From an uncultured Paracoccaceae bacterium (GTDB taxonomy: Bacteria > Pseudomonadota > Alphaproteobacteria > Rhodobacterales > Rhodobacteraceae): DNA of 64,000 nucleotides. Where the stretch lies: positions 1-64,000 of the forward strand of contig CAJWNQ010000001.1 in the NCBI GenBank assembly GCA_913043905.1, read 5' to 3'. A program made the translations under genes and the position numbers. Under the pieces are notes generated by a model that worked only from the letters and a program-made list of their open reading frames with translations, ran no database searches and was not told where the DNA came from. The number at the start of each line of letters is the position of its first letter. The stretch's first letter is position 1. Below, one piece after another: positions 54,553 through 59,317 of the stretch.

Positions 54553-54933
54553 TCAAGCCGCAAAGGTAATTTTTGCGATGGCAAAAATAGCTACCAGTCC
54601 AAAAGTCCAGCAAAATAATTTGTTTAATTTAATTAGTATTAAAACGCGTCCCCGTGTATGGACGTAGTCTTCAATTACAACCTGTAAACCTTCTTCTAAG
54701 TGTTTGAGGGTAACCAAAAAGAAAATAATTAATGCAAATCCCTTTACTGGGCTTTGCAGTGACCCCACGACAGTTGAATGATCAGCACCAATTAAAGGAG
54801 CAATAATGCAAATGAAAATAATCGTCAGCGGTATTAGAGCAACAGACTTAAGCCGCTCACCAAACCAGTGGCTAGCACCCGTTTCTGCAGATCCACGGCC
54901 TGATACTTGAACTATATCAGTTTTATAATTCAT
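54553..54933 (-). CDS. sdhD: Succinate dehydrogenase membrane anchor SdhD
   Basis: A 126-residue anchor with three helices. His78 in [17 protein letters not shown] with Asp89/Tyr90 matches the haem and quinone positions of SdhD. ATG 54933 overlaps the sdhC stop by 4 bases. Confidence 0.93.
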
Positions 54934-55325
54934 GATAATGCTCCAGAATAATAGATAACTATAATTGTAAATATAAAGCTTCCAATTATGACGCACCAAC
55001 CCATTCGGTCAGAAGTTTTCAAATCAAAACCATATCCCATATCCCATATAAGATGCCGAATACCCCCTAAAGAATGGTAACAAAGGGCCCAGACAGAACC
55101 CACCATAACTATCGCCCCAAACCAGCTGGTCATCATACCATTAATAAATTCAAAATATGGAATGCTTATTGAAGCTGCCAAAAGCCACCAAATTACTAAT
55201 ACAAATCCAAGCGCCAAAGCTACACCTGAAATTCTTACAAAAATTGAGGAGACGGAACTCATTTGTGGCCGATATATAGTCAAATGAGGTGAAAGTGGGC
55301 GTTTACCCTTGGCTTCATTGGCCAT
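54930..55325 (-). CDS. sdhC: Succinate dehydrogenase cytochrome b556 subunit SdhC
   Basis: A 131-residue anchor with three helices. RPLSPHLTIYRPQMSSVSSIFVRISG (about 9-34) is the SdhC signature and quinone-site Ser/Arg; His84 in YHSLGGIRHLIWD is the haem ligand. GGAGAG ribosome site. It is the first gene of the operon; the upstream region has a 7-5-7 hairpin and a TTGTGATCACAA palindrome. Confidence 0.95.
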   Translation of the reverse strand: MANEAKGKRPLSPHLTIYRPQMSSVSSIFVRISGVALALGFVLVIWWLLAASISIPYFEFINGMMTSWFGAIVMVGSVWALCYHSLGGIRHLIWDMGYGFDLKTSDRMGWCVIIGSFIFTIIVIYYSGALS

Positions 55326-55444: not shown

Positions 55445-55456
55445 TTGTGATCACAA
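55445..55456. promoter_or_regulatory. TTGTGATCACAA palindrome upstream of sdhC
   Basis: A perfect 12-base palindrome about 120 bases upstream of sdhC. TGTGATCACAAAT (55446-55458) is identical to a 13-mer in the inverted repeat upstream of sucC. Probable operator of a shared TCA-cycle regulator (GntR-like or CRP-like half-sites; type not known). Confidence 0.65.
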
Positions 55457-55467
55457 ATTACTTAATT

Positions 55468-55653: not shown

Positions 55654-57076
<1,423 letters not shown>

Positions 57077-57099
57077 ATAATTCACACAAAACATTTAAG

Positions 57100-57127
57100 A
57101 AGCGTACTGCATTAGTGCGCTTTTTTT
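57100..57127 (+). terminator. Terminator after mdh
   Basis: AAGCGTAC / GTGCGCTT stem (one G-U pair in RNA) with a 7-base loop and T-run, 23 bases after the mdh stop. Confidence 0.85.
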
Positions 57128-57151: not shown

Positions 57152-57230
57152 AAATTAGTTTAATTAATCTATATTTGTGATCACATCTTATTTTCATGTG
57201 ATCACAAATATAGATTAATTAAACTAATTT
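57152..57230. repeat. Perfect 35-base inverted repeat upstream of sucC
   Basis: Arms at 57152-57186 and 57196-57230 are exact reverse complements over 35 bases, with a 9-base spacer. Each arm contains TGTGATCACA. It lies just after the mdh terminator and about 90 bases before sucC. It might be a pair of operators, a cruciform, or a very stable RNA hairpin in the sucC leader. No mobile-element feature or target-site duplication is evident. Confidence 0.92.
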
Positions 57231-57317: not shown

Positions 57318-58514
57318 ATGAACATTCATGAATACCAAGCTAAACAACTATTAAAAGCATACGGATGTCCAGTATCGGACGGCCAGCCCGTCTTTAATGC
57401 ATCAGAAGCAGAAGCTGCAGCAAGTCAGATGGATGGACCCCTTTGGGTCGTAAAAGCACAAATACATGCGGGTGGTAGAGGCAAAGGTTCGTTTGTAGAA
57501 GATGCCGCTGGAGATAAAGGTGGTGTCAGGTTAGCATTTTCCATTGAAGAAGCTGTTGCAGAAACTAAAAAAATGCTTGGAAATGTATTAGTCACCCACC
57601 AAACTGGTCAAGCAGGTAAGCAAGTTAATCGAATTTATATAGAAGATGGCTCAGACATCGAAACAGAATTATATTTAGCTGTTTTATTAGATAGTTCTTC
57701 CTCACGCATTTCTTTTGTAGCCTCCACAGAAGGTGGCATGGACATAGAAGCTGTAGCGGAAGATAACCCTGAAAAAATTATCACTGTAACTATTGATCCA
57801 TCTATCGGTTTTACAACAAAAAATGGTCGAGATGTAGCTAATGCACTGAACCTAGCTGGTAGTAATATCGACGAATGTATAGAATTAACTACTAACCTAT
57901 TTCGTATGTTTGTTGAAAAAGATATGGATATGTTAGAAATTAATCCATTAATTGTTTTAAAAACTGGTGGGTTAAAATGTTTAGATGCAAAAATGGCCTT
58001 TGATGGTAACGCATTGTTTCGTCAACCTGACATTTTAGCATTGCGCGATGAAACAGAAGAAGATCCAAAAGAATTAGAAGCGTCTAAATATGACCTTAGC
58101 TACATTGCATTAGAAGGTGAAATTGGGTGTATGGTAAATGGTGCTGGCTTAGCTATGGCTACTATGGATATTATCAAACTTAAAGGTGCAGAACCTGCCA
58201 ATTTTTTGGATGTAGGTGGCGGAGCAACTGCAGAAAAAGTAACTGCAGCTTTTAAAATTATAACTTCTGATCCGAATGTTAAAGGTATATTAGTAAATAT
58301 TTTTGGCGGCATAATGCGCTGTGATGTAATAGCTGAAGGAGTAGTTCAAGCTGTAAAAGAAGTAGGATTAAAGGTGCCATTAGTTGTGCGCCTCGAAGGT
58401 ACAAAAGTTCTAGAGGGTAAAAATATTATTAATGAATGCCCATTTGACGTTATTGCAGCTGATGATTTAGATGACGCTGCTGAAAAAATTGTTAAAGCAG
58501 TGAAAGCTAAATAA
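57318..58514 (+). CDS. sucC: Succinyl-CoA synthetase beta subunit
   Basis: A 398-residue ADP-forming subunit with the N-terminal ATP-grasp fold ([26 protein letters not shown] near 47-56) and C-terminal ligase domain ([16 protein letters not shown] near 330). With SucD it makes succinate, ATP and CoA from succinyl-CoA. GAGGAG ribosome site lies in a small AGAGG/CCTCT repeat. Its stop shares one base with the ATG of a methyltransferase gene placed before sucD. Confidence 0.96.
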
Positions 58515-59317
58515 TGACTGAAAATTTGTCTGCTAGAAATTGTCCAAATTGTAAAAGTACAGTCGCAACTGTGCTGGAAGAATATTCCTACAATGAATGG
58601 AACGTTGCAGCATGTGATAGTTGTTCAATGTTGTACTTAAAAAACCCACCCACTTACAAAGACCTAGAAAAAACTTTTGGTTGGGAAACTACATTTAGGG
58701 AAGAGGATAGCAGACGCGCAAAAAAACGTGGTCCTATAAAACACTTGGCTAGAGCTATTCGTGAGTTAAATTATAGTCTACGCTCAGACGATAATGTTCG
58801 ATATCGCCGCATATTAGGCAGTGGGCGAATATTAGATGTTGGATGTGGTGATACTGTTCGTTGGAAACCTCCATTCATTCCATTTGGCATTGAAATTTCC
58901 AAAGCATTAGCACTAAGTGCAAACAAAAAAATGCACCCTCTTGGTGGTGAGTGCCGCCAAGGTTCTGGTGCAGAAACAATCTGGGAATTTGAAAAAAACT
59001 ATTTTGATAACATAATGATGCACAGTTATTTAGAACATGAAATAAACGTAAGTAAAATACTCAATGGTGCGTATCAATGTTTAAAGCCAGGGGGGAAAAT
59101 ATTTGTTCGTGTGCCTAATTTTAATTCTTTGAATCGCAGAATTTCTAAAAGTAATTGGCCAGGAATGCGTTACCCAGATCACGTTAATTACTTCACAGTC
59201 AGAACACTACGGTCTGTTGCAAATAATGCTGGTTTTAATTTTAAACTACATAATAAGCACAAAATTTGGGTGGATGACAACATTCAAGCTTTGTTTATTA
59301 AACCCATTAAAAATTGA
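58514..59317 (+). CDS. SAM-dependent methyltransferase with zinc ribbon, inside sucCD
   Basis: A 267-residue protein. The N-terminal zinc ribbon has Cys10-x2-Cys13 and Cys34-x2-Cys37. A class I methyltransferase core follows: SAM loop [10 protein letters not shown] at 105-114, acidic IEISK near 126-130, [19 protein letters not shown] near 163, and [13 protein letters not shown]. This is the layout of the Methyltransf_23 group, often acting on sugars, lipids or small acids. It overlaps sucC by one base and ends 10 bases before sucD, so it is co-translated with succinyl-CoA synthetase. No link between the two activities is known to me; a role in CoA-thioester or lipid chemistry is speculative. 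Confidence 0.85.

Follow-up and report, generated by a model that had tools for sequence, protein, structure and literature searches.

The long inverted repeat at 57152-57230 of the window (the whole 64,000-nucleotide stretch of DNA analysed here, from an uncultured Paracoccaceae bacterium) is very probably a pair of AkgR-type operators placed two helical turns apart before sucC, one flank of which was most likely rewritten by template switching. As judged from comparison with related genomes, the repeat has two layers: a conserved core of two TGTGATCACA palindromes 21 bp apart, and outer flanks that are private to this lineage. It is thus ordinary in kind: an already known regulator, paired operators that recur across much of the family, and a mutational ornament specific to this lineage. 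At the level of sequence, the evidence consists of the conservation of the pair, its placement before sucC and sdhC, its co-occurrence and linkage with a regulator gene, and a single copy of the motif in the promoter of that regulator in relatives. What looked like a puzzling hairpin thereby yields a rule, open to testing, for how an abundant family of marine bacteria regulates its TCA cycle.

The two 35-nt arms (57152-57186 and 57196-57230) are 100% complementary, without a mismatch, and are separated by 9 nt. At the base composition of the 64-kb window, approx. 1.5e-13 such repeats (perfect 35-bp arms, spacer of 0-20) are expected by chance in 2.02 Mb, which bears out the claim of an earlier note on this DNA that a perfect 35-base repeat with a 9-base spacer is far above chance. 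The arms contain the distal operator S1 (57176-57185) and the proximal operator S2 (57197-57206), both exact copies of TGTGATCACA with 21 bp from centre to centre; an 11-nt spacer (57186-57196) separates them, and a left and a right outer arm of 24 bp each (57152-57175 and 57207-57230) enclose them. The sites begin 142 and 121 bases before the start of sucC (57318-58514, plus strand), which encodes the succinate-CoA ligase beta subunit according to NCBIfam and is the putative regulated gene. The upstream neighbour is the malate dehydrogenase gene mdh (56102-57076, plus strand; NCBIfam). Downstream, a methyltransferase-like open reading frame (58514-59317, plus strand) without an NCBIfam family at 1e-20 lies between sucC and sucD.

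Exact matches to TGTGATCACA in the window start at 55446, 57176, and 57197. The first of them (55446-55455) begins 130 bases before the start of sdhC (54930-55325, minus strand), which encodes the succinate dehydrogenase cytochrome b556 subunit according to NCBIfam and would be the second regulated gene. The available genome of this organism comprises 2,020,252 bases in 83 contigs (92.65% complete, and so possibly lacking some sites) and holds TGTGATCACA at five places, where approx. 2.4 are expected; three are the sucC and sdhC sites. Of the remaining two, one (L004) falls within a 742-aa open frame and one (L005) outside the listed open reading frames of at least 60 aa, and neither context extends to the 13-mer TGTGATCACAAAT on either strand; therefore, all three known places of the 13-mer in this genome are at two TCA promoters. 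The earlier note had reported that the 13-mer recurs at 55446-55458 before sdhC and had called for a genome-wide scan; the recurrence is confirmed, and in this genome the scan confines the 13-mer to those two promoters.

Conservation in relatives separates the two layers of the repeat. A pair of TGTGATCACA-like palindromes with at most two summed mismatches precedes sucC at 42 of the 43 nearest sucC loci (L013-L054 and L071) and at none of 37 more distant ones. The centres are 21 bp apart in 36 of the 42 loci and 20 bp apart in six, the S2 core lies 104-128 bp upstream of the sucC start in these 42 named loci, and the pair is kept even in GC-rich genomes with otherwise unlike flanks. The one exception among the nearest loci, L044, is preceded by another gene and possibly represents a second sucC locus. 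The consensus of the pair reads TTTGTGATCACA, 11 nt, TGTGATCACAAA. A strict tandem pattern, which was limited to spacings between 16 and 21 bp, was matched in 168 of 199 genomes of the family (two matches in 103, one in 64, and three in one), and its reversed control had no match in the same genomes. A relaxed pattern added 11 of the 31 strict-negative genomes, counted by pattern match alone whatever its position, which brings the tandem to 179 of the 199; in a class-wide draw, the relaxed pattern was found in 6/6 family genomes versus 7/381 others. Among 116 distinct pairs, many of which were retrieved by the spacing-limited pattern, the spacing is 21 bp in 103 and 20 bp in 13.

These results divide what the earlier note had treated as one functional unit. 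The 35-bp arm, whose loss in close relatives the note had named as evidence against itself, is indeed missing there, whereas the two 10-bp palindromes 21 bp apart are conserved and the 13-mer lies at TCA promoters, as it had proposed. The core pair most likely represents AkgR-type operators that, to judge from these genome comparisons, are widespread in Rhodobacteraceae. A consensus scan for a sigma-70-like promoter between the repeat and sucC yielded none.

The second target is sdhC. In 17 family genomes inspected for the position of the tandem, all selected for having strict-pattern matches, it stands before sucC in 17 and before sdhC in 16, which supports the earlier proposal that one regulator may couple the sdh and sucC operons. 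In the genome analysed here, sdhC has one site with no partner at 20-21 bp, so that a second tandem member is not recognisable, and a single tandem was found in the whole genome at up to three mismatches. The same search found no distant partner sites, and the suggestion that the two inverted copies allow DNA looping was thus not supported. Across the genus of the window (20 loci surveyed, with SdhC located in 12; L246, on a short contig, was left out), the state of the sdhC site varies. An exact single site is found in this genome and in G024, G023, and G025, one exact site with a two-mismatch partner at 21 bp in G005, and a 21-bp pair in G015, G026, and G012; in G029 (L242) two sites lie 32 bp apart, approx. 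three helical turns, and in G001, G032, and G031 there is no site within one mismatch. Such mixed states suggest ongoing decay of the sdhC operator in this AT-rich group, in which the sucC pair has been kept. In the family genome G069, a third tandem (L170:7293-7324, on G069:C16) is situated approx. 130 bp upstream of a class II fumarase gene, and fumC may therefore belong to a predicted AkgR-type regulon in some lineages.

The likely binding protein, called the candidate below, is encoded approx. 2 kb beyond the end of the window, on the minus strand at G000:C1:65965-66621, directly after sucA-sucB-lpd of the same cluster. Its product has GntR and FCD domains and is one of six GntR proteins in this genome above the Pfam cut-off. 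At E≤1e-55, the gene is found in 179 of the 199 family genomes, and of these 179 genomes 177 have the tandem, against 2 of the 20 that lack the gene (Fisher 2e-21, a value that is not a probability because shared ancestry is uncorrected). The exceptions are G050 and G137, with the tandem and no candidate at this cut-off, and G067 and G170, with the candidate and no tandem. Of 50 genomes with both positions among the matches listed, 20 have the candidate no more than 20 kb from the tandem; this set of 50 derives from 58 genomes with tandem positions among the matches listed (47 strict and 11 relaxed), less eight in which the regulator was unlisted or absent (G033, G115, G116, G137, G154, G220, G085, and G222). 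In a scan for GntR genes around sdh, the candidate adjoins sdhB only in G078 (0.74 kb) and G186 (approx. 1.5 kb). Because tandem and regulator occur together almost one to one, regulons could be predicted in uncultured genomes, where the site pair and the regulator together predict which operons are coupled.

The regulon of AkgR, a GntR-family regulator of Rhodobacter sphaeroides, was reportedly described by Imam et al. in mBio in 2015, article e02461-14. We take AkgR to be RSP_0981. The candidate at 65965-66621 is apparently an AkgR orthologue, an assignment that comes from protein family, gene neighbourhood, and motif rather than from direct comparison with RSP_0981. The likeness extends to the GTGATCAC palindrome, of which sucC and sdhC together have three exact copies upstream, to the predicted sdh and suc targets, and to a GntR/FCD gene near the sdh-suc cluster. 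The numbering RSP_0974-6 and RSP_0981 suggests that the regulator is adjacent to sdh in R. sphaeroides too. What differs here is the strict pairing at 21 bp (sometimes 20 bp), the single site at the regulator gene in relatives, and the homogenised flanks in one lineage. In a passage of PMC4344238, the GntR protein RSP_0981 is predicted to regulate sdh, sucCD, and odh in R. sphaeroides, and PMC6365646 contains an attribution of the GTGATCAC motif to AkgR sites. AkgR is also named in passages of PMC11323563, PMC4419725, and PMC7471390. Moreover, GT-GATC-AC fits the GntR-type consensus GT-Nx-AC given in an excerpt of PMC4494728.

It is quite unlikely that the pair is instead bound by another regulator, e.g., the GntR/FCD protein L156 or the PdhR-like protein L153. 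L156 is as widespread as the candidate (179/199 genomes at E≤1e-30) and has the tandem in 172 of these 179 genomes versus 7 of the 20 without it, but this co-occurrence is weaker than that of the candidate at 65965-66621. Among the matches listed, the tandem is never within 20 kb of L156 (0/42) or of L153 (0/39), and GTGATCAC was absent upstream of L156- and L153-type GntR genes in all eight loci examined (0/8). L156 and L153 were rejected as binders on these grounds; for L153, the co-occurrence by the strict pattern alone is 138 of 146 genomes with it versus 30 of 53 without it. CceR was rejected as well, as its predicted motif in the relevant passage of PMC4344238, GTT-N6-8-AAC, differs. The window holds a further GntR/FCD gene, L157 (35611-36300, plus strand), to which the orthologues of the candidate in G078 and G186 are approx. 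33% identical.

The AkgR-type candidate is also set apart by the promoters of its orthologues. Of 30 orthologue loci (L208-L237), which are the best-scoring matches and not a random draw, 22 have the GTGATCAC motif just upstream of the gene, against a background of 104/1500 windows, a count that includes windows over the site itself; the candidate gene of this genome (L208) has no recognisable GTGATCAC upstream. In 14 of the 21 loci in which the distance was measured (the twenty-second site-bearing locus, L213, fell outside the position limits), the motif follows the start of TTGA(C) at a distance of exactly 18 bp, between the likely -35 and -10 regions. Repressors commonly bind at such a position, which suggests autorepression in these relatives.

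A working model follows these observations. AkgR dimers would sit at S1 and S2 along one side of the helix, probably binding cooperatively, and from these paired sites AkgR would activate sucC and sdh, while the single site in the core promoter of akgR would mediate autorepression in relatives. The earlier note had raised cooperative binding at two neighbouring sites, and the S1/S2 pair sustains it as a possibility at the level of sequence. A model for such a fixed-spacing pair is offered by NanR of E. coli, whose GntR/FCD dimers bind cooperatively to adjacent (GGTATA)3 operator repeats, as described in part of PMC8012715. The analogy is partial: according to the same excerpt, NanR is a repressor, its operators are direct repeats, and it requires an N-terminal extension, whereas none is obvious in the candidate here. 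PMC4494728 provides, in the section concerned, a comparable case of extra recognition sequence beside a GntR palindrome; in that case, weaker half-sites lie 7-12 nt from the centre, and here a full second palindrome lies 20-21 bp away. It is quite possible, although we stop short of calling it probable, that AkgR is a dual-mode switch governed by operator number, in which the pair at TCA genes activates and the single site at its own gene represses, and that the pair doubles as a template-switch site that rewrites the promoter flank in one step and leaves the operators untouched. In the literature searched, within which the primary AkgR paper did not fall, the constant spacing of the pair, the lone site in the promoter of the regulator, and the templated flank were not found described. 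In particular, the titles and abstract beginnings searched contained no report of the paired architecture, and a search with the string TGTGATCACA returned no title on the subject.

The position of the repeat also invites a reading at the RNA level, namely that it acts as a terminator, an RNase III target, or an attenuator between mdh and sucC. A perfect hairpin in this intergenic region is what such a reading calls for, but what relatives keep is two palindromes with variable flanks and spacers rather than a stem, the same pair occurs before sdhC (and, in G069, before fumC), and a separate terminator-like hairpin (57097-57125, plus strand) already lies 3' of mdh; this makes the reading very improbable. 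The duplex that the earlier note had offered as a possible RNase III target is accordingly disfavoured, since the repeat lies downstream of this putative terminator, although transcription may run across it. Three terminator-like hairpins were found in the region, with 1.2 expected in shuffles. That the repeat is the end of a mobile element or a MITE is more improbable still. A long perfect inverted repeat would suit such an element; however, no second copy was found in this genome (the leftover matches were short, with E of 0.03 or worse) or in the sucC regions of relatives, and the function of the core is predicted to be conserved across the family. The left arm also had no match among viral contigs.

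The long perfect arms are best explained, from comparison with the nearest relative, G024, as a recent templated mutation outside the recognition code. Only in this lineage are the 24-bp outer flanks exact mirror images of each other. The right flank, colinear with G024 and the presumed source of the copy, is identical to it in 21 of the first 25 and 51 of the first 60 bases, whereas the left 25-nt window matches the left flank of G024 in 8/25 positions and the inverted right flank in 20/25; the best of 2000 shuffles reached 17. The 11-nt spacer is flipped relative to G024, with 4/11 identical positions in direct and 10/11 in inverted orientation, and in a genome search the match to G024 was 91% over 64 bases inverted and 84% direct. 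Hence, one arm appears to have been copied in inverted form from the opposite flank, and it is missing in the sister genome G024, as expected of template switching. Most likely, the polymerase switched templates at the inverted operator pair and thereby put a reversed duplicate of the right flank in place of the left one. Since the right flanks of the two genomes have diverged whereas the arms remain the same, the copying probably took place recently in this lineage. In a portion of PMC8604942, homogenised arms together with an inverted spacer are given as the mark that template switching leaves at inverted repeats. The likeness to the cases treated in that portion covers perfect arms in one lineage, arm copying, and a flipped spacer; those cases concern yeast coding genes (arms of 5 bp extended to 16 bp in REG2), and here the site is a bacterial operator pair with arms of 35 bp. 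Twenty-one hand-read spacers from part of the genus did not assign the flip to a lineage, and there is no family-wide excess of arm symmetry (2/120 pairs above the 99% null, with 1.2 expected).

Selection of the perfect arms for a function, such as a cruciform, extended recognition, or looping, is quite unlikely. The strand does fold as a full 35-bp hairpin (-31.9 kcal/mol, with z of -14.85 as DNA), and another lineage (L022) carries a perfect arm of 21 bp; yet long perfect arms are missing in G024 and in the other pairs, and copying accounts for the arm-to-arm identity. The perfect arms may also be an assembly error, against which stands the colinearity of this genome with G024 on either side of the repeat. 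On the preferred reading, a templated copy, the private arms would be a clean natural case of templated multi-base mutation at a bacterial operator, and they warn that a long perfect inverted repeat need not be selected. Elsewhere among the 116 pairs, the longest perfect arms measure 21 bp (L022) and then 17 bp. The former belong to the sucC operator pair in the region of L022:4858, where arm homogenisation possibly occurred independently.
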